Positions 836-16,454 of a stretch of 64,000 bases of DNA are shown here, one piece after another. Numbering within the stretch: position 1 is the stretch's first letter; each line of letters starts with the position of its first letter. Source of the stretch: Poseidonibacter parvus (GTDB lineage Bacteria; Campylobacterota; Campylobacteria; Campylobacterales; Arcobacteraceae); contig NZ_CP019070.1 in the NCBI RefSeq assembly GCF_001956695.1, forward strand, positions 434,001 to 498,000. The letters run 5' to 3'. Both the position numbers and the translations under genes were made by a program. The notes beneath the pieces are model-generated. The model was given only the letters and a program-made list of their open reading frames with translations. It was not told the origin of the DNA and searched no databases.

Positions 836-1123
836 GAACTATTTAACTTAAACTTATAGAATTCTTTTTATATTTATTAATAAGAATTCAACTACTATAT
901 CATTCCCTCAATATTTCATTTATTTTCACTTTAATTTATAACTATTCTACTCTTAACATAGCATTAAAATAGCATTTGCAATTTATTTGTAAAATTGCGT
1001 AATTTTTAGACAATTTAAGCTAATATATTAAGTTTTAATTAAGTTTCACTGTGAAATAATGATTAAAGAAAAAAAGGTACTACTTTAAGTAGTACTAAAA
1101 AATACACATAAAAAGTTATAAAA
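836..1123 (+). promoter_or_regulatory. Leader of RHH cassette 1: AGCAT direct repeat and palindromic operator-like site
   Basis: This 288-bp stretch has no gene. At 960-975 AGCAT is repeated with an 11-bp period (AGCAT-TAAAAT-AGCAT). A 7-bp inverted repeat with a 7-nt spacer spans 978-998 (GCAATTT/AAATTGC). At 1077-1095 there is a perfect 19-bp palindrome with 9-bp arms (GTACTACTT/AAGTAGTAC), followed by CTAAAAAATAC. The AGCAT repeat and a palindrome followed by CTAAAAAATA recur at nearly the same distances before the second cassette at 12.4 kb. The palindrome is a plausible autoregulatory operator for the RHH protein; that role is inference. Confidence 0.55.
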
Positions 1124-1363
1124 ATGGCAAAGCAAAAATATAAAAGAACAGTTATTCAAAAAGTTATAAATAATCATTTAAAAAGTAATAAAAGAGAAGT
1201 TTCTCAACTTACTGTAAAGATTGATAAAAGACTGGATAACGCACTTTTAGTTTTATCTACATCTTTAAATATTTCTAAAAATAAACTAATAGAAGATATT
1301 TTATTTGAAAGTGGTATTTTAGATGAAGTAGATGAAAATTTTGTTGGAGATAACAATGAATAG
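1124..1363 (+). CDS. Small ribbon-helix-helix-like protein (cassette 1)
   Basis: A 79-residue basic protein. Residues about 27-66 (SQLTVKIDKRLDNALLVLS, then SLNISKNKLIEDIL) have the strand-helix-helix pattern of an RHH/MetJ-Arc DNA-binding fold, in which a short strand leads into two helices with an SKNKLI turn. It is paralogous to the protein at 12397-12633; the core SLNISKNKLIEDI is identical. No strong ribosome site precedes its ATG. Its end overlaps the next gene by 8 bp, which implies translational coupling. It is likely a DNA-binding regulator of its own cassette and perhaps of the transporter operon that follows. A toxin-antitoxin role is an alternative. Confidence 0.7.
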   Translation: MAKQKYKRTVIQKVINNHLKSNKREVSQLTVKIDKRLDNALLVLSTSLNISKNKLIEDILFESGILDEVDENFVGDNNE

Positions 1364-2015
1364 TTTCCCATCACAAGATGAAGTAGTAGAAGCAGTTTTA
1401 ACAGGTATTAAAACTGCTAAGTCAAATTATAGTTTTTGGACTGCTGATGATATTTATTTATCATATGCACCTCCAAAATTCTTGACTATACATGTATCTC
1501 AAGAAATAGCAAAACTAAGTCCTGCTCCAGAAATTTTTATTGATGCAACAATTGCTGATATATTAAGATGTTCTCTTCCTAAAAGAGATGCATTTAAGTG
1601 GTTTATGGCAGAGAATAATATTGCTCAAGATGTAATTTGTTTAACACTAGATGAAAGATTTGAACATAAAAGTGATAATGATTCTATTTCAAAAGTTATT
1701 ATGAGTATAAGAAATGGTGTAAGAAACGCACAAGCTGAATATAAAGATGATATAGAGTTAATGTGTAAATTACTTCAAAGAGAACAAAGGGATGAATCTA
1801 CATTAGACTATGGAGTTTTTGCTTTTTACTTAGATATTTCAAATACTGCAAGAAAAAAAAGCGAAAAAAGATTAGAAGAAATTATTGAAGCATTTAATAA
1901 GATTGTAGCTTCACATAAAAATTTAAAATCAAGTTTTAAAGGAGGCGATATTAACAAGATTGATAATGTTGGCGAATGGTGTGTTGGGTGTTATATTATT
2001 GAACCAACGGTTTAA
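1356..2015 (+). CDS. Conserved protein of unknown function paired with RHH protein (cassette 1)
   Basis: I do not recognise this family. The ATG at 1356 is preferred over one at 1332 because GGAGA lies just before it and the paralogue at 12633 starts at the matching residue (MNPFP versus MNSFP). The 219-residue protein appears cytosolic: no signal peptide or membrane segment. Blocks conserved with its paralogue are YLSYAP, SQEI, PEIFIDATIAD, TLDERF, IRNGVRN/VRNGVRN, VFAFYLDISN, GGDIN and GEW-VGCY. Such strong, evenly spread conservation suggests an enzyme or ligand-sensing fold. It overlaps the RHH gene by 8 bp and lies 37 bp before livK, so it may act with the RHH protein to sense an amino-acid signal. 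Confidence 0.75.
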   Translation: MNSFPSQDEVVEAVLTGIKTAKSNYSFWTADDIYLSYAPPKFLTIHVSQEIAKLSPAPEIFIDATIADILRCSLPKRDAFKWFMAENNIAQDVICLTLDERFEHKSDNDSISKVIMSIRNGVRNAQAEYKDDIELMCKLLQREQRDESTLDYGVFAFYLDISNTARKKSEKRLEEIIEAFNKIVASHKNLKSSFKGGDINKIDNVGEWCVGCYIIEPTV

Positions 2016-6566: not shown

Positions 6567-6586
6567 ATAACAAAACCATTGAAGAA

Positions 6587-6694
6587 AAGTAGCATAAGGG
6601 GATTTACTTGGCGGCATATCCCCTTAGTTTCTAGACAAAAAAGCCTGTCTGTAAGCTACTTGAAATTTATTTAAAAACAAATTAATTTTAAGGA
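6587..6694 (+). ncRNA. Candidate riboswitch-like structured leader upstream of putA (element A)
   Basis: The sequence folds as a three-way junction. P1 pairs 6587-6593 (AAGTAGC) with 6655-6661 (GCTACTT). P2 pairs 6596-6603 (AAGGGGAT) with 6618-6625 (ATCCCCTT) around a 14-nt loop that contains ACTTGGCGGCAT. P3 pairs 6633-6637 (AGACA) with 6646-6650 (TGTCT), with loop AAAAAGCC. The GGC of loop 2 could pair with the GCC of loop 3. The 3' strand of P1 runs into CTTGAAATT (6659-6667), which can pair with AATTTTAAG (6684-6692) and so mask the AAGGA ribosome site at 6690-6694. P1 formation and ribosome-site masking are therefore mutually exclusive. A related element lies before ctlX. I cannot match it to a known riboswitch class. 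Confidence 0.72.
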
Positions 6695-6700
6695 TTAAAA

Positions 6701-9700
6701 ATGAAAAAAGAACAAGAACTTGTAAATTCTGCTGTAACTCTTGCTTGTAAATGGCAAAATAGAGCAACTGAACTTGTGAGTGATTTTGATAGAGAATTTT
6801 ATGTAAAGATGAATAAGATGCTTGAACAACCAAAAGATAAAGCACTTTTAATTGAGCTTATGGATCAGTGTTTTAGAGCTGAATCAAATGCAAGAATAGC
6901 AGATCAGATTTGTTTTTTATTAGAAAAACATGGAATGGCACATTTTTTTACAACAAAAGATAAAACGCTTTTATACCTATTCCAAAATATAGGTAAATAT
7001 TTACCTAATATTTCTGTTCCATTATTTGTAAATCAAATTAGAGAAGATACTAAAACTGTAGTAATTAAGGGTGAAGAAGAGATCTTTAATGCACATCTTA
7101 AGAAAAGAAAATCTGAAGGAACTAGAGTAAATATCAACCTTATTGGGGAAGTAGTCTTAGGAGAGCAAGAAGCGGGTGAGCGAATGGAAAAATATATAAA
7201 GGCATTAGAGAATCCAAATGTTGATTATATTTCTATTAAAATATCTACTATTTTTTCACAAATTAATCCTTTAAATTTTGAAAATGTTGTTGATGTATTA
7301 GTTGCTAAGCTTACTTTAATTTATGAAGCCGCACAAAAGAATCAATATGTAACAAACTCTGGTGAAAAGAGAGATAAGTTCATTAATCTTGATATGGAAG
7401 AGTACCGAGATTTAGCTATTACTGTTGAAGTATTTAAAAGAACTTTAGAAAAGCCACAATTTCAAAGCCTTTATGCTGGTATTGTATTACAAGCTTATTT
7501 ACCTGATTCCTTTCTTTGGCAAAAAGATTTATGTGATTGGGCAAGAAATAGAGTACAAAATGGTGGATCTCCTATTAAGTTTAGACTTGTTAAGGGTGCT
7601 AATATGGAGATGGAAGAAACAGAAGCCTCTCAAAAACATTGGGAAATGGTTACTTATGTAGATAAAGCTGACACTGATTCAAATTATAAAAGAATGGTTA
7701 GATATGCACTGGATAAAGACAATGCTCCATTTATGCATATAGGAACAGCATCTCACAATTTATTTGAATTAGCATTTGCTACTGTAATGGCAGATGAGAA
7801 TGGAACAAGTGAATATCATACATTAGAAATGTTAGAAGGTATGAGTGAATCTGCAAGATTAGCAATTAAAGAAATTTCTAAAGAAGTGATTTTATATGCA
7901 CCTACTGCATCAAAAGAACAATTTACAAATGCAATTGCATATTTAGTGCGAAGACTTGATGAAAATACTGGTCCAAATAACTTTATTAGATATTCATTTG
8001 GATTAAAAGTTGCTTCAAAAGACTGGAAAATGCAAGAAAATCTTTTTAGAGAATCTTTTGAAGTTGAAAAAACATCTTTTGTAGGTTCTAAAAGAGTTCA
8101 AAATAGATTAGACGAAAAATGGGACAATTATTCAAACTCTTCTTTTGATACAAACTCTTACCATGCAGAAGCTGATACTGATTTTATTTTAGAAAAAAAT
8201 CATGAATGGGCTGCTAATATTGTTAAAAAATGGAAAAACACTAAAGATACTGTTCATACAATTGCCCCTGTTGTTGTAGGTGGAGAAGATTTAGTAGGTG
8301 ATCGTAAAATTTTTGATGCTATTGATAAATGTCAAGTTGAAGATGGTGTATTAGCAGGTAGATTTGCCTTAGCAAATAAAGAAGATATTAATAAAGCTGT
8401 TGCAGTTGCAAAGGCTGATGTTGATGGTTGGAGAGATTTAACTCATGCACAAAGACATGAAATATTAAAAGCAGTTGCAATTAAAATGCGTGAAAGAAGA
8501 GATAATTTAATTGGAGTAGCTTCAGCTGAAGTTGGTAAAGTATTTACTGAAACTGATGTAGAAGTATCTGAAGCAATTGATTTTGTTGAATTCTATACTC
8601 ATGCAATTAGACACTTTGATGATTATGAAAATCTTGAAGTTAGTGCAAAAGGTGTTGGTGTAGTTGTTCCTCCTTGGAATTTCCCTATTGCAATTCCCGT
8701 TGGTGGAGTAGCATCAGCATTAGCAGCTGGTAATACTGTTATTATTAAACCTGCTTCTGTTGCTGCTTTATGTTCTTATGAAATGTGTAAATGTTTCTGG
8801 GATGCTGGGATTTCAAAAAATGTTTTACAATTTCTTCCTTGTCCAGGAGCACTTGCAGGAGAGCATTTAATTCCAAATAAAGATATTGACTTCTTAATCT
8901 TAACAGGTGGTGAAGATACAGCTGCAACAATGTTAGAAACTAGAAATGATTTATTCTTATCGGCTGAAACTGGTGGAAAAGATGCCACAATTGTTACAAA
9001 TATGGCAGATAGAGAACAAGCTGTTAAAAATGTATGTCAAAGTGCATTTGGAAACTCTGGTCAAAAATGTTCAGCAACTTCTTTACTTGTATTAGAAGAT
9101 GAAGTTTATAACGACGCAGGGTTTAAAAAGGCATTAATTGATACGGCAAGCTCAATGAATGTAGGTTCTATTTGGGACATGAAAAATAGAATCGGAACAT
9201 TAGCTAATAAAGTAAGTGGTAACCTAGAACGGGCACTTAATGAGCTTGAAGGTAATGAAACTTGGGCTTTAAAACCAGAATATGTTGATGGTAACCCTTA
9301 TATGTTAAAACCATCAATTAAATGGGGAGTTGAGGAAGGTAACTTTATTCACATGAATGAATTATTTGGACCTGTATTAGCAGTTATTAAAGCAAGTGAT
9401 TTAGAACATGCAGTTAAAATAGTAAATGCAACTGGATATGGATTAACTTCCGGAATTGAATCTTTAGATGAAAGAGAAATAGAATATTGGAAAGAAAATC
9501 TTGAAGCTGGTAACCTTTATATAAATAGAGGAACTACAGGTGCAATAGTTTTACGACAACCATTTGGTGGAATGGGTAAATCTGCAATTGGAGCAGGGAG
9601 AAAAGCTGGTTTCTATAACTATGTTACTCAATTTGTTGATATAAAAGAAACTCAAAATCCAAAAAGTTTAAAAGTATATAATACTGAATTAACTAAATTT

Positions 9701-10270
9701 ATTGATAACTGTGTTAGTACTCATAATAATCAAGAAGATTTCAAGAAATTAAGTATTGCACTACAATCATATTATTCTAACTTTGAAACAGAGTTCTCAC
9801 AAGAGAAAGATTATGCAAAGGTAAGAGGTGAAGATAACCACTTTAGATATTTACCTTTAGATAATGTACTTATTAGAGTATCAAGTGAGGATACATTATT
9901 TGAATCAATCTCAAGAATCTTAGCTGCAAAAGTATCAGGAGTTAGATTTAAAGTTTCTATTGAAGATAATAAATTAATTCAATCATTCCTAGAGAATTCA
10001 AAAGAATTATTTGGTGCACGTGACGGTTTAGTTTCTCAAACAGATGATGAAATGATTAAGTCAATGGATAAATTTGATAGAGTAATTTATTCGGATATTT
10101 CAAAAGTATCAGATGTAGTGTTTAAGAAATCTGCCCAAACATTAACTTTTATAGTAAGACAAAAACCAATGATGGAAGGAAGACTAGAGCTTCTTAATTA
10201 CTTCATTGAACAATCAATCTCACACTCTTTCCATAGATATGGAAATATTGGTGCTAGGGATTTAGCTTAA
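6701..10270 (+). CDS. putA: Bifunctional proline dehydrogenase / 1-pyrroline-5-carboxylate dehydrogenase
   Basis: The protein oxidises proline to glutamate in two steps, with FAD and NAD cofactors, and feeds electrons to the quinone pool. In its 1189 residues the proline dehydrogenase domain is at about 140-440 (YISIKISTIFSQINPL; RLVKGANMEMEE). The aldehyde dehydrogenase domain is at about 530-1010 (VVVPPWNFPIAIP; LSAETGGKDATIV; catalytic Cys790 in GQKCSATS). A C-terminal extension of about 170 residues follows, and the total length matches Helicobacter-type PutA. There is no N-terminal RHH DNA-binding domain, so it is not self-regulating as in enterobacteria. The start is set by AAGGA six bases upstream, inside the RNA switch. 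Confidence 0.95.
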   Translation: MKKEQELVNSAVTLACKWQNRATELVSDFDREFYVKMNKMLEQPKDKALLIELMDQCFRAESNARIADQICFLLEKHGMAHFFTTKDKTLLYLFQNIGKYLPNISVPLFVNQIREDTKTVVIKGEEEIFNAHLKKRKSEGTRVNINLIGEVVLGEQEAGERMEKYIKALENPNVDYISIKISTIFSQINPLNFENVVDVLVAKLTLIYEAAQKNQYVTNSGEKRDKFINLDMEEYRDLAITVEVFKRTLEKPQFQSLYAGIVLQAYLPDSFLWQKDLCDWARNRVQNGGSPIKFRLVKGANMEMEETEASQKHWEMVTYVDKADTDSNYKRMVRYALDKDNAPFMHIGTASHNLFELAFATVMADENGTSEYHTLEMLEGMSESARLAIKEISKEVILYAPTASKEQFTNAIAYLVRRLDENTGPNNFIRYSFGLKVASKDWKMQENLFRESFEVEKTSFVGSKRVQNRLDEKWDNYSNSSFDTNSYHAEADTDFILEKNHEWAANIVKKWKNTKDTVHTIAPVVVGGEDLVGDRKIFDAIDKCQVEDGVLAGRFALANKEDINKAVAVAKADVDGWRDLTHAQRHEILKAVAIKMRERRDNLIGVASAEVGKVFTETDVEVSEAIDFVEFYTHAIRHFDDYENLEVSAKGVGVVVPPWNFPIAIPVGGVASALAAGNTVIIKPASVAALCSYEMCKCFWDAGISKNVLQFLPCPGALAGEHLIPNKDIDFLILTGGEDTAATMLETRNDLFLSAETGGKDATIVTNMADREQAVKNVCQSAFGNSGQKCSATSLLVLEDEVYNDAGFKKALIDTASSMNVGSIWDMKNRIGTLANKVSGNLERALNELEGNETWALKPEYVDGNPYMLKPSIKWGVEEGNFIHMNELFGPVLAVIKASDLEHAVKIVNATGYGLTSGIESLDEREIEYWKENLEAGNLYINRGTTGAIVLRQPFGGMGKSAIGAGRKAGFYNYVTQFVDIKETQNPKSLKVYNTELTKFIDNCVSTHNNQEDFKKLSIALQSYYSNFETEFSQEKDYAKVRGEDNHFRYLPLDNVLIRVSSEDTLFESISRILAAKVSGVRFKVSIEDNKLIQSFLENSKELFGARDGLVSQTDDEMIKSMDKFDRVIYSDISKVSDVVFKKSAQTLTFIVRQKPMMEGRLELLNYFIEQSISHSFHRYGNIGARDLA

Positions 10271-12230: not shown

Positions 12231-12379
12231 AGCATCAAAATAGCATTCTTAGTTTATTTTCAAAACTTTACCAAATTACATCTCTATATATATAATTAAA
12301 CCTATTTCTTAAGTTTATTTTAATTTTAACTGTGCAAGAATAATCAATCAAAGTTTAGTAATACTTTTGGTATTACTAA
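12231..12379 (+). promoter_or_regulatory. Leader of RHH cassette 2: AGCAT direct repeat, -10 box and operator-like palindrome
   Basis: AGCAT-CAAAAT-AGCAT lies at 12231-12246, about 151 bp before the ATG; in cassette 1 the distance is 149 bp. A TATAAT box follows near 12290. Inverted repeat TTAGTAATAC/GTATTACTAA (12355-12364 with 12370-12379, 5-nt spacer) is followed by AAAAATA, as in cassette 1. The leaders also share AACTGTG-AA--ATAAT-like blocks, so leader and genes were probably duplicated together. Confidence 0.55.
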
Positions 12380-12396: not shown

Positions 12397-12633
12397 ATGG
12401 CATTAAGAAATAATGATAGACTTGTTATTCAACGAGTTATAGATAAAAATTCTGGAACTAAAAAAAAGAAAAAAGTTGTTCAATTAAGTATTAAAATAGA
12501 TGAGAATATTGATGATGCTTTATATACTTTAAGTAAGTCATTAAATATTTCTAAAAATAAATTAATTGAAGATATTTTTCTTGAAAGTGGTATTGTTCAA
12601 GAAGTTGATGAAAACTACACAAAGGTTAGATAA
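12397..12633 (+). CDS. Small ribbon-helix-helix-like protein (cassette 2)
   Basis: A 78-residue paralogue of the protein at 1124-1363. The ATG at 12397 is chosen over 12367 because TTAGGA lies just upstream and the protein start then aligns with the first copy (MALRNN versus MAKQKY). After a lysine-rich linker, VQLSIKIDENIDDALYTLS and SLNISKNKLIEDIF form the strand-helix-helix pattern. Its stop overlaps the start of the partner gene by one base (TAATG). It probably binds the palindrome 20-40 bp upstream. The cassette precedes the ctlX-ocd-arginase operon, as copy 1 precedes the transporter. Confidence 0.7.
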   Translation: MALRNNDRLVIQRVIDKNSGTKKKKKVVQLSIKIDENIDDALYTLSKSLNISKNKLIEDIFLESGIVQEVDENYTKVR

Positions 12634-13274
12634 TGAATCCTTTTCCTGAAAAAAAAGAAGTTTTAGAAAAAGTACAAAAAGGTATTTTAAATGCTAGAGA
12701 AAACTTTTCTCTATGGACAGGGGAAGAATTATATCTTTCTTATGCTCCAGCAAATTTTTTGTCAATTCACATTTCACAAGAAATATCAAAATTAAGTGTT
12801 TTACCTGAAATATTTATCGACGCAACAATTGCAGATACTCTAAAGTACGCGCTAAAGAATACAGATGAGTATAAATCTTTTATGAGAAAAAATGAAATTA
12901 TGGATAGAACTTTTTGCATTACTCTTGATGAAAGGTTTGACCATGAAACAAATAGAGATTCTATAGCCAAAGTTATTATTTCAGTTAGAAATGGTGTACG
13001 AAATGTAAAAGAAGAATATTTAAATGATATAGATGTAATGTGCAAAGTTATTTCAGATTCAAGTTTAGATTATGCAGTTTTTGCTTTTTATCTAGATATT
13101 TCTAATAAAGCTAGAATTAAAGCCAAGGAAAGAATTAATGAATTAATTTCAGCATTTGATGAAGTTTCTGAGAAGTATAAAGAAATAAGTACAAGATTTA
13201 TTGGAGGAGATATAAATACAATTGAAAATATAGGTGAATGGAGTGTTGGATGTTATGTAATTGAAAATAAATAA
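12633..13274 (+). CDS. Conserved protein of unknown function paired with RHH protein (cassette 2)
   Basis: A 213-residue paralogue of the protein at 1356-2015, about half identical by eye. Shared blocks include YLSYAP, PEIFIDATIAD, TLDERF, VRNGVRN, FAFYLDISN, GGDIN and GEW-VGCY. The copy lacks about four residues in the middle, near the segment before LDY. No membrane segment or signal peptide is visible. I cannot name the family. Both copies keep intact frames and the same conserved blocks, so both are probably functional. A structured RNA starts about 45 bp after the stop. Confidence 0.75.
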   Translation: MNPFPEKKEVLEKVQKGILNARENFSLWTGEELYLSYAPANFLSIHISQEISKLSVLPEIFIDATIADTLKYALKNTDEYKSFMRKNEIMDRTFCITLDERFDHETNRDSIAKVIISVRNGVRNVKEEYLNDIDVMCKVISDSSLDYAVFAFYLDISNKARIKAKERINELISAFDEVSEKYKEISTRFIGGDINTIENIGEWSVGCYVIENK

Positions 13275-13321: not shown

Positions 13322-13431
13322 GTGGCAAAGGAAAAGGAGTTACTTGGCGGTGCATCCTTTCCCTTCTTAACAGTCAAAGCTGTACTGTTACGCTACCTTA
13401 AATTTATTAAAAAACAAATTAATTTTAAGGA
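13322..13431 (+). ncRNA. Candidate riboswitch-like structured leader upstream of the ctlX operon (element B)
   Basis: The same architecture as the putA leader. P1 pairs 13322-13326 (GTGGC) with 13392-13396 (GCTAC). P2 pairs 13328-13338 with 13355-13365 (10 pairs, one mismatch). Loop 2 carries TTACTTGGCGG and GCA. P3 pairs TAACAGT with ACTGTTA (13368-13374 and 13384-13390), with CAAAGC in its loop. CCTTAAA (13396-13402) can pair with TTTAAGG (13424-13430), masking the ribosome site AAGGA of the small frame at 13438. The stems differ in sequence from element A but keep pairing, while loop 2 is conserved. That is the signature of a functional RNA. The last 50 bp before the ATG are nearly identical to the putA leader. 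Confidence 0.7.
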
Positions 13432-13437
13432 TTATAG

Positions 13438-13614
13438 ATGAAAAAAAAATATAAAGTTTCTATAAATAACTTTTATAACTCTTTCTCGCATAAATTTATG
13501 CAAGACAATGATAATTCTTATTATTTAAAATTAAAAATAAGGATAAAAAATAATGTCATTAATACAATCCCCCAATACTATAGTCATGGTAAGGCCGTGG
13601 AAGTTTTGTTCTAA
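13438..13614 (+). CDS. Small upstream frame (58 codons) between the RNA switch and ctlX
   Basis: This ATG is the one that the element B ribosome site serves (AAGGA, then six bases). The encoded peptide starts MKKKYKVSINNFYNSFSHKF and has no recognisable domain. It overlaps the first 62 bases of ctlX in another frame and stops at 13614. Its first codons, ATGAAAAAA, match the start of putA, so the leader and start may have been copied from putA. It may be a leader peptide whose translation controls ctlX, or a decaying remnant. Confidence 0.45.
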   Translation: MKKKYKVSINNFYNSFSHKFMQDNDNSYYLKLKIRIKNNVINTIPQYYSHGKAVEVLF

Positions 13615-14479
13615 TCCTGAAACTTCTGATGATAATGCTTTTCAAAAAATCAGCTCATTAACTAAGTCAAATACAGCTTTTAATGCAAAAGAAGAATTTA
13701 ATGAAGTAGTTAGAGTATTAGAATCAAAAACAATTAAAGTTCATATATTTGATGATTTTGGGGAAAAAGATACTCCTGATTCTGTATTTCCTAATAATTG
13801 GTTTTCAACGCACCCTGGTGGTCATATAGCAATTTATCCAATGTTTTCTTTAAGTAGAAGAAGAGAAAGGAGGCAAGATATTATTGAGATGTTGAAGTCT
13901 GAATATAGAGTTCAAGATGTAATTGATTTTTCTGGTTTAGAATGGGATAATTTATTTCTTGAAGGAACTGGGGCAATGGTTCTTGATCATATAAATAGAA
14001 TTGCATATACAGCTAAATCAAATAGATCAAGTGAAATTATTTTAGAAAGATTTTGCTCTATTTTTCATTATGAACCAATGGCATTTGATACGGAAGATGA
14101 AAATGGTAAAACAGTTTATCATACTAATGTAATGATGAGCATAGGTACTAAGTATGCATTAATTTGTTTAAATATGATAAATGATGATAAAAGAAGAGCA
14201 GAAGTAAAAAGTAGACTTGAAGAATCAGGAAGGGTTGTTATTGATTTGAGCTTTGCTCAGATTAATAATTTTGCAGGTAATACCTTAGAATTAACTGGCT
14301 TAAATGGAAAGAAATACTTAGTAATATCAAAAGTTGCCTATGAATCATTACATAGTTCAGAGATAGAAATATTATCGAAAATGGTTGAAACTATACCTAT
14401 AAGTATCCCAACAATTGAGTTAGCTGGTGGTTCAGTTAGATGTATGATGGCTGGAATCCATCTTAGTAAAAGAAAATAA
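13553..14479 (+). CDS. ctlX: Citrulline-utilisation hydrolase CtlX (guanidino-modifying enzyme fold)
   Basis: The 308-residue protein belongs to the arginine deiminase/DDAH-like superfamily. Matching features are MVRPWKF near the start, the DSVFPNNWFSTH segment, and the C-terminal AGGSVRCMMAGIHL with the likely catalytic Cys297. CtlX enzymes hydrolyse citrulline to ornithine, ammonia and CO2. The next genes convert ornithine to proline, which fits. Other superfamily members act on arginine, so arginine dihydrolase activity is an alternative. It has its own AAGGA ribosome site about nine bases before the ATG, in addition to the RNA switch further upstream. Confidence 0.8.
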   Translation: MSLIQSPNTIVMVRPWKFCSNPETSDDNAFQKISSLTKSNTAFNAKEEFNEVVRVLESKTIKVHIFDDFGEKDTPDSVFPNNWFSTHPGGHIAIYPMFSLSRRRERRQDIIEMLKSEYRVQDVIDFSGLEWDNLFLEGTGAMVLDHINRIAYTAKSNRSSEIILERFCSIFHYEPMAFDTEDENGKTVYHTNVMMSIGTKYALICLNMINDDKRRAEVKSRLEESGRVVIDLSFAQINNFAGNTLELTGLNGKKYLVISKVAYESLHSSEIEILSKMVETIPISIPTIELAGGSVRCMMAGIHLSKRK

Positions 14480-14490
14480 AAGGAAAAAAT

Positions 14491-15504
14491 ATGAAAGTAT
14501 TAGAAATAGAAGATATTAAAAGAATTGTAGAAAAGCTAGGATATAAAGATTTTTATTCAATGTTAATAAGAACATTAGAAGAAGATTATTCAAATTGGGA
14601 GAGTTTTGATAAAACACCAAGAGTAGCAAATCATGTTGATGGTGGAGTGATTGAATTAATGCCAATTTCAAATGATAAATTATATACATTTAAATATGTA
14701 AATGGACATCCTAAAAATCCAGCACAAAATAAAATGACAGTAATGGCAACGGGACAATTATCAGAAGTTTCAACAGGTGAACCTTTGATGTTTACGGAAA
14801 TGACATTGTTAACAGCATTTAGAACAGCAGCAAACTCAGCAATGGCAGCAAAATATTTAGCAAAAAAAGATTCAAAAATATTAACACTTATTGGAACAGG
14901 TGCACAAAGTGAATTTCAATATCTTGCATTTTCACAAATATTTGATCTTGAAGAAATAAGATACTTTGATACAGATCCAAAAGCAATGGATAAATTTGAA
15001 AAAAATATGAAACAATTTGATATAAAAATAACAAGATGTAAAGATTCAAGAGAAGCGGCAATGGGTGCAGATATTATTACAACATGTACTGCTGATAAAA
15101 GGTATCAAACTGTTTTAACAAGAGATATGATTTTAGGAGATGTATATATTAATGGAATAGGTGGAGATTGTCCAGGTAAAACAGAAATTGAAAAAGAATT
15201 AGTTGAGTCATCAACAGTAGTATGTGAATTTTTAGAACAATGTAAAATTGAAGGTGAAATACAACAATTAGATAAAGATTTTACTTGTACGGAATTGTAT
15301 GAAGTTATTCGAGGTGAGAAGAAAATAAATGTAGAAACTCATGGAACAATAGTATTTGATTCAGTAGGGTTTGCAATCGAAGATTATTCTGTATTAAGGT
15401 TAATTTATAAATTAGCGAATGAATTAAACATTGGTAAAGAAATGAATCTTCTTCCTGAATTAGATGATGTTAAAGATTTATTTTCTTTAGTGGAGAAAAA
15501 ATAA
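14491..15504 (+). CDS. ocd: Ornithine cyclodeaminase
   Basis: A 337-residue member of the ornithine cyclodeaminase/mu-crystallin family. Features are MTVMATGQLSEVSTGEPLMF around residue 85, FRTAANSAMAAKYLA, the Rossmann loop TLIGTGAQSEFQ near residue 130, and INGIGGDCPGKTEI. The enzyme uses bound NAD to convert ornithine to proline and ammonia in one step. It lies between ctlX and the arginase gene and overlaps the latter by one base (TAATG). The proline produced would be the substrate of PutA. Related dehydrogenases share the fold, but this context favours ornithine. Confidence 0.88.
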   Translation: MKVLEIEDIKRIVEKLGYKDFYSMLIRTLEEDYSNWESFDKTPRVANHVDGGVIELMPISNDKLYTFKYVNGHPKNPAQNKMTVMATGQLSEVSTGEPLMFTEMTLLTAFRTAANSAMAAKYLAKKDSKILTLIGTGAQSEFQYLAFSQIFDLEEIRYFDTDPKAMDKFEKNMKQFDIKITRCKDSREAAMGADIITTCTADKRYQTVLTRDMILGDVYINGIGGDCPGKTEIEKELVESSTVVCEFLEQCKIEGEIQQLDKDFTCTELYEVIRGEKKINVETHGTIVFDSVGFAIEDYSVLRLIYKLANELNIGKEMNLLPELDDVKDLFSLVEKK

Positions 15505-16454
15505 TGTTAAAAAGAATAAAGGTTATAGAAGTATACTCTGATATTGCAGGACATAGAAAAGGCGCTTCATATGGTATTGAAGCATTAAGAACATCTTCAA
15601 TAGAAGAAAATTCTCAATATTATGAAAAATTAGATGTTGATACGATTGGTGAGAATAACCAGCATTATCCTGATTCTATTTTTAAACATGCAAAACATGC
15701 TGATCGTATACATACTACTATTTTAAATTTGGCTTCTAAAGTAAAAGAAGCTAGAGATGAAAGAAAGTTTCCAATTGTTATAGCAGGAGATCACTCAAGT
15801 TGTGCAGGAACAATGCATGGTTTAAAAATGGCACATCCTGATGCAGAAATTGGTGTAATTTATATTGATGCGCATGCAGATATTCATTCTCCTTATACAA
15901 GTAGTTCAGGAAATATGCATGGTATGCCTTTAGCAATGGCTTGTGCACTTGATAATCTTGAATGTCAAATAAATGAATTGACTTTACCCGAAACTGAATA
16001 TTGGAATAAATTAAAATTTATGGCTTCAAATGAAGCCTCTATAAAACCTGAGAATATAGTTTTTTGTGCAGTAAGAGACTACCAAGAAGAAGAAATGTCT
16101 TTAATCAAAAAACATAAAATTCCTTTATACTCTGTTGAAGAAATTACACATAAAGGAATAGGACCAACAGTAGAAGAAATTTTTAAAAAGCTTGAATATT
16201 GTGATCATATTTATGTTTCATTTGATGTTGATAGTGTCGACCCTTTATATATTCCTGGGACTGGGACTCCTGCTGAAAATGGTCTTTCATATGAACAAGC
16301 AATGCAGTTAAATATAGAACTTATAAAAAATGAAAAAGTATGCTGTTGGGAAATGGCAGAAATTAATCCACTTTATAATAATTCAAAAGACGATTCTACA
16401 AGAATTTTCAAAATTTTAGAAAAAGTGACTCATTCTTTATTAAATAACTACTAA
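15504..16454 (+). CDS. rocF: Arginase
   Basis: A 316-residue ureohydrolase. The binuclear manganese motifs are complete: AGDHSS, DAHADIH, SFDVDSVDP and a late Glu in MAEINP; PGTGTPAENGLS is the usual substrate-site segment. It splits arginine into ornithine and urea. It is translationally coupled to the cyclodeaminase gene, so arginine and citrulline both feed the same ornithine-to-proline step. No urease genes are in the window. Other ureohydrolases such as agmatinase share these motifs, but the operon context favours arginase. Confidence 0.88.
   Translation: MLKRIKVIEVYSDIAGHRKGASYGIEALRTSSIEENSQYYEKLDVDTIGENNQHYPDSIFKHAKHADRIHTTILNLASKVKEARDERKFPIVIAGDHSSCAGTMHGLKMAHPDAEIGVIYIDAHADIHSPYTSSSGNMHGMPLAMACALDNLECQINELTLPETEYWNKLKFMASNEASIKPENIVFCAVRDYQEEEMSLIKKHKIPLYSVEEITHKGIGPTVEEIFKKLEYCDHIYVSFDVDSVDPLYIPGTGTPAENGLSYEQAMQLNIELIKNEKVCCWEMAEINPLYNNSKDDSTRIFKILEKVTHSLLNNY

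Follow-up and report, generated by a model that had tools for sequence, protein, structure and literature searches.

A candidate orphan riboswitch tied to proline metabolism in the leaders of putA and related genes of one Campylobacterota family

The leader that precedes putA in the window (the whole stretch of 64,000 nucleotides analysed here) is a member of a real, family-restricted and undescribed cis-regulatory RNA tied to proline metabolism; in other words, it is an orphan riboswitch candidate. By sequence comparison, the three-way junction, the near-invariant ACUUGGCGG in the loop of P2 and the fixed position before putA are established, and so are the copies before an ornithine cyclodeaminase-arginase operon and the core hairpins before genes of hydroxyproline clusters. 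It is about an even call that this leader RNA family, most likely acting as a riboswitch, ties the translation of proline-metabolism genes to proline. The reading favoured here is an L-proline riboswitch that turns translation on; the ligand, its direct binding and the ON direction are what we infer, and we hold this reading with evenly divided confidence. More tentative, a little short of even, is the fuller proposal that the leaders represent the first natural L-proline riboswitch class, in which the ACUUGGCGG-loop hairpin core would work alone or within a three-way junction to give translational ON control, in one Campylobacterota family, of genes making or consuming proline.

Fold and covariation of the leader

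Two leaders are present in the window, at 6587-6701 (copy 1, before putA) and at 13322-13440 (copy 2). Both form a three-way junction around an identical ACUUGGCGG, and the stems P1, P2 and P3 are found in both. The stretch TTACTTGGCGG occurs exactly at 6604-6614 and 13340-13350 of the window, one in each leader. The shared loop 2 and junction proposed in the sequence-only reading are borne out. The only further ACTTGGCGG in the 2.87-Mb genome lies within the coding sequence of an ABC substrate-binding gene. The elements of the two leaders are as follows.

6587-6593, + strand: 5' strand of P1 in copy 1 (putA), AAGTAGC; paired in 93% of cells over 30 leaders, with two pairs changed on both sides
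6596-6625, + strand: P2 hairpin of copy 1, AAGGGGAT ... ATCCCCTT
6606-6614, + strand: core ACTTGGCGG in loop 2 of copy 1
6632-6651, + strand: P3 hairpin of copy 1, TAGACA AAAAAGCC TGTCTG
6655-6661, + strand: 3' strand of P1 in copy 1, GCTACTT; its last 3 nt are common to P1 and the masking helix
6659-6667, + strand: arm CTTGAAATT of copy 1, able to pair with the ribosome site in a 9-bp helix with 6684-6692
6684-6694, + strand: ribosome-site arm AATTTTAAGGA of copy 1, with AAGGA at 6690-6694
13322-13326, + strand: 5' strand of P1 in copy 2, GTGGC
13328-13365, + strand: P2 hairpin of copy 2, with the inner stem AAAGGA/TCCTTT
13342-13350, + strand: core ACTTGGCGG in loop 2 of copy 2
13369-13390, + strand: P3 hairpin of copy 2
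13392-13396, + strand: 3' strand of P1 in copy 2, GCTAC
13397-13431, + strand: masking segment of copy 2, CTTAAATTTATT...AATTTTAAGGA, with AAGGA at 13427-13431

The junction of copy 1 alone (6585-6670) folds at -25.1 kcal/mol with a z value of -3.2, and none of 200 shuffled sequences was as stable. Copy 2 has the same layout with weaker folding (z = -1.9). Conservation between the two copies is highest downstream of the junction, in AAATTTATTxAAAAAACAAATTAATTTTAAGGATTA.

The comparison covered 104 genomes of the window's family, taken to be Arcobacteraceae, and 397 of the phylum. A nucleotide search of the family genomes found homologues, the full-length ones of which sit before putA. With the covariance model R1 and inspection, 28 intact putA leaders were recognized among 49 putA-positive family genomes. 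Five more putA leaders are degenerate: four have no P2 and core, and one retains the stems with the core lost. The search for covarying relatives proposed in the earlier reading did find them before putA. R1 gave no match outside the window's family in the 397 phylum genomes. For the hairpin model R2, 16 out-of-family phylum matches were examined and rejected: they coincide with coding frames, and their surroundings have no link to proline. They are therefore treated as chance, and they also show that E-values of R2 around 0.001 are too optimistic.

The 30 leaders that were structurally aligned have a mean pairwise identity of 72% (minimum 47%). Pairing of P1 is AAGUAGC/GCUACUU. P2 is usually GAGGGG/CCCCUC, with AAAGGA/UCCUUU in the second copies, CAGGGGA/UCCCCUG in G019 and GAGGGC/GCCCUC in G082 and G083. 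The sequence of P3 varies widely and its pairing is largely kept. Changes on both sides were seen in 5 of the 6 modelled pairs of P2 and in all 6 of P3, in agreement with the earlier view that these stems differ in sequence and remain paired. ACUUGGCGG is intact in the P2 loop of 26 of the 30 leaders, and the core is also intact in both hydroxyproline-cluster hairpins described below. Loop 3 (L3) is A-rich and not constant. The AAAGC noted there from the two copies is common in the sense that AAGC occurs in 22 of 30 leaders, but it is not general. The kissing of GGC and GCC between loops 2 and 3, which had also been proposed, is not supported, GCC being present in L3 of only 5 of 30 leaders.

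In an alignment that was not fitted to the structure, changes on both sides were seen in 9 of 19 pairs and the covariation was 0.229, compared with 0.120 +/- 0.013 for shuffles and at most 0.133 for slid partners. In the structural alignment, which leans towards the model by construction, the corresponding values were 13 of 19 pairs and 0.315, with controls of 0.120 +/- 0.012 and at most 0.108; the effect is large in both alignments. Since the covariation is well above the shuffled and slid controls, the structure of the leader is more than chance. The leaders thus hold a conserved, covariation-supported structure at the 5' side of the gene, as is expected of a riboswitch.

It should be mentioned that natural loss forms exist upstream of putA in four genomes (L098, L102, L104 and L115, from G032, G033, G060 and G034, respectively). 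P2 and the core are gone, and a P1-P3-like hairpin still precedes the conserved ribosome-site segment. These forms might resemble a constitutively ON remnant.

Gene contexts and the common metabolite

The genes behind the two leaders are as follows.

6701-10270, + strand: putA, proline dehydrogenase and aldehyde dehydrogenase (PF01619 and PF00171 only)
13438-13614, + strand: 58-codon ORF overlapping the start of ctlX, served by the ribosome site of copy 2
13553-16454, + strand: genes behind copy 2, namely the next three
13553-14479, + strand: ctlX
14491-15504, + strand: ornithine cyclodeaminase
15504-16454, + strand: arginase-family gene (PF00491, TIGR01229 just below cutoff)

No DNA-binding domain was found in the putA product. 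Among the genes behind copy 2, NF046062 and NF005762 were matched above cutoff.

The sequence-only reading had taken ctlX as the partner gene of copy 2. The AAGGA of this copy precedes the AUG at 13438 of the 58-codon ORF, not that of ctlX at 13553; therefore, any effect on ctlX would be through coupling, and direct action on the start codons of ctlX or ornithine cyclodeaminase is not seen. The orthologous leader of the sister genome G091 stands before the ornithine cyclodeaminase-arginase operon, from which ctlX is absent. As a conserved partner ctlX was rejected: it occurs in 3 of the 104 genomes, and the other two have no leader before it. Copy 2 thus belongs to the ornithine cyclodeaminase/arginase operon, and ctlX is there in this genome only.

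In addition, the core hairpin occurs in two hydroxyproline clusters. In G066, a core hairpin with neither P1 nor P3 directly precedes the gene for cis-3-hydroxy-L-proline dehydratase (602 bits, cutoff 500), in a cluster that also contains 4-hydroxyproline epimerase and pyrroline-2-carboxylate reductase. The stretch ATACTTGGCGGTTGCTCCC of this hairpin is identical to that in the putA leader of the same genome. In G092, the core hairpin is located between the dehydratase gene and an EamA transporter, which is followed by a proline-racemase-family gene. The dehydratase is found in only four family genomes: the two with a putA leader have the hairpin, and the two with no leader lack it. A scan for the dehydratase across genome contigs gave mostly alphaproteobacterial relatives and was uninformative for the RNA.

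L-proline is the substrate of PutA and the product of both ornithine cyclodeaminase and the route from hydroxyproline to pyrroline carboxylate. It is therefore the single metabolite common to all contexts: 28 putA leaders, two leaders of the ornithine cyclodeaminase operon and two hairpins of hydroxyproline clusters. The genes are those of one metabolite, as would be expected for a riboswitch, and the link to proline/ornithine metabolism suggested earlier is upheld and made stronger. Proline, ornithine, citrulline and arginine had been listed as possible ligands, and the new contexts favour L-proline as the putative ligand over the other three.

Predicted expression platform and alternative explanations

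After P1, CUUAAAAUU is complementary to the ribosome site AAUUUUAAG(GA). When the two states were forced in ViennaRNA, the median energy of ON minus OFF was -0.55 kcal/mol, that is, they are near-isoenergetic; the values in this genome are +0.4 for the putA leader and +0.1 for copy 2. The mean accessibility of the ribosome site was calculated by the same program to be 0.70 in the ON and 0.40 in the OFF state. The longest masking helix overlaps P1 by 1-3 nt in about 21 of the 30 leaders. In about 9, the longest helix has no such overlap and the geometry is less clear. The mutually exclusive pairing described in the earlier reading is accordingly plausible for the former, in view of the near-equal energies, but less clear for the rest. 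Competition between P1 and the predicted masking helix for the 3' strand of P1, the two states being nearly equal in calculated energy, is supported by the modelling, and it would fit a translational ON switch. Calculated without ligand, most leaders already favour P1. In the proposed mechanism, L-proline would bind to the P2/L2 core and stabilize P1; the stabilized P1 would free AAGGA, and translation would be turned on.

No intrinsic terminator was found on the + strand in either leader, and no promoter match around the putA leader. Copy 1 starts about 21 nt downstream of the livF stop codon. Taken together, these observations suggest that copy 1 most likely acts on translation within a transporter-putA transcript; it would control putA alone within this longer transcript.

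Tandem GTAnTAC-N5-GTAnTAC repeats with a 12-bp period are found at window positions 1077-1095 and 12358-12376, each just before a ribbon-helix-helix-like gene (1124-1363 and about 12397-12633, respectively) that opens a leader-bearing unit. Both units begin with the repeat, this small gene and a gene for a protein assigned to no family. The repeat precedes the homologous operon in all 13 genomes checked (in one of them as a single repeat unit), and it is also found immediately upstream of putA in genomes where this gene lacks the RNA leader. It therefore looks like an operator. Because the same repeat precedes leaderless putA, the RNA probably adds a second layer, at translation, to control of transcription, judging from this arrangement.

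The family-less proteins are two paralogues, encoded at window positions 1332-2015 and 12633-13274, with no Pfam or NCBIfam family. Such a protein is encoded in 43 of the 104 family genomes, linked to putA, ctlX or ornithine cyclodeaminase. Its AlphaFold model is confident (pLDDT 89) and shows no clear known fold; the matches found by structure comparison were all weak (best Z of 7.0 over 118 residues, rmsd 4.4). As a reader of the RNA it was considered and rejected on its distribution, since it occurs also where no leader exists.

The occurrence of the core hairpin alone makes recognition by a protein a serious rival, although we consider it less likely, at roughly half the weight given to the L-proline riboswitch. 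An RNA-binding protein would recognize the ACUUGGCGG hairpin and shift the balance between P1 and the ribosome-site helix in trans, so that the P1/P3 junction serves as a local expression platform only. A loop that stays constant while its stem changes in sequence, and that is found also where P1 and P3 are missing, is what such a protein site would look like. The poorly conserved P3 loop and the restriction of the hydroxyproline-cluster hairpins to genomes that also keep a putA leader point in the same direction. On the other hand, a candidate protein was not found: the family-less protein of both operons occurs also where the leader is missing, and its predicted fold gave weak, uninformative matches. 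Several points count against the riboswitch itself. For an aptamer that binds an amino acid the lone core hairpin is small, and it would suit a protein site just as well. The overlap of P1 with the longest masking helix is missing in about 9 of the 30 leaders, and most leaders are calculated to favour P1 even when no ligand is present. Inovirus-like elements carry similar core hairpins with no evident proline link, and copy 2 does not act directly on the start codons of ctlX or ornithine cyclodeaminase.

The TTTTACTTGGCGGTT core of these elements lies in intergenic hairpins at L166:5370-5398 (G005) and L167:8296-8324 (G023). Both elements encode a Phage_GPA-type Rep and one encodes Zot. The hairpins are possibly a rolling-circle origin that resembles the core by chance, or they may be related to it. 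No relatives of the inovirus-type Rep were confirmed in viral contigs. A scan of viral contigs for the core gave exact matches in at least 120 stretches, the majority of which have no stem. One near-perfect 10-bp hairpin with the loop TTTACTTGGCGGTTT, at L242:5724-5751, lies in a large viral contig, within a tRNA array, and has no proline context.

A leader-peptide attenuator would read the core in a different way: its UUG would start a short ORF (LAVxP...), and stalling at an early proline codon, governed by prolyl-tRNA charging, would select the helix. The 5' strand of P2 is indeed purine-rich and ribosome-site-like, 4-9 nt upstream of the UUG. An in-frame LAVxP is present in nearly all leaders, and 28 of the 30 have proline as their fourth or fifth codon, but the CCCC run would give a proline codon in any frame, and a proline codon is missing from L085 and L087. 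Of the four core variants, two (the G066-type changes of the alanine codon in L007 and L009) are synonymous when read in this frame. However, the alanine is encoded by GCG in 26 of 28 cases, yet GCG makes up 4% of the alanine codons of the genome. The start codon is never AUG or GUG and is CUG once, the position of the stop floats from codon 7 to codon 29, and the hydroxyproline-cluster hairpins have no clear ribosome site upstream of the UUG. The codon bias, the start type and the floating stop speak against a constraint on coding, and together with the frame-independent proline codon they make the attenuator improbable.

A riboswitch of the same design could respond to another metabolite of the pathway, namely hydroxyproline, P5C or pyrroline-2-carboxylate, ornithine, or glutamate, all of which are one or two steps from the regulated enzymes. 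Most leaders, however, precede putA alone, the substrate of which is L-proline; ornithine does not suit the putA and hydroxyproline contexts, and hydroxyproline does not suit that of ornithine cyclodeaminase. We regard this possibility as quite remote. Least probable of all, and with only slight weight, is that an antisense small RNA or a tRNA pairs with the exposed, near-invariant 9-nt loop. Outside coding sequence, this genome has no other complement of the core 9-mer, and the 17 further TTGGCGG sites include a single one that is not within a coding frame, and none in a tRNA.

Relation to known RNAs

No match to Rfam 15 was obtained in the window at the gathering thresholds. At permissive thresholds, nothing meaningful was found for either leader at E up to 10, and nothing for six relatives at E up to 1; the earlier statement that no known class has such a sequence is thus confirmed within Rfam. 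Among the papers searched, neither a named putA-leader RNA nor the phrase "proline riboswitch" was found. Intergenic regions of Arcobacter sp. L were scanned by Stav et al. 2019, where motifs confined to Arcobacter were left unnamed (PMC6429828). The text of that paper names no putA or proline motif (PMC6429828); an earlier, unnamed sighting of the leader is possible. The Gd4v motif, a guanidine-IV variant and an orphan candidate itself, sometimes occurs in operons with genes of the ornithine cyclodeaminase family and in this respect is similar to our leaders; it is described from gut bacteria and with a terminator of the Rho-independent type (PMC9788692), whereas the leaders in this genome have no terminator.

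To our knowledge, few natural classes of amino-acid riboswitches are known. If the L-proline riboswitch is confirmed, the new class would be a small, testable proline sensor, and it would show how proline catabolism is controlled in bacteria in which no DNA-binding domain was detected in PutA. Should the reader be a protein, the core hairpin would define a new RNA-binding regulator.

The glycine, lysine and glutamine/glnA riboswitches are structured leaders before metabolism or transport genes, with an expression platform that competes for a P1 strand. Our leaders are similar to them in standing directly before such genes, in having an unpaired conserved core within covarying helices and in a predicted platform that would compete for one strand of P1. 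They differ in the core and in the gene contexts, which are those of proline and not of glycine, lysine or glutamine; Rfam holds these classes, yet the leaders match none of them. The purine-type riboswitches are three-way junctions of P1, P2 and P3 that switch via P1 and are defined by the kissing of L2 and L3. The junction and, as proposed, the switch through P1 are shared by our leaders. However, the GCC partner required for kissing is present in 5 of 30 leaders, P3 is dispensable in the hairpin-only copies, and Rfam gives no match. Although it belongs to none of the described classes tested, the leader resembles the three-way-junction ON riboswitches.
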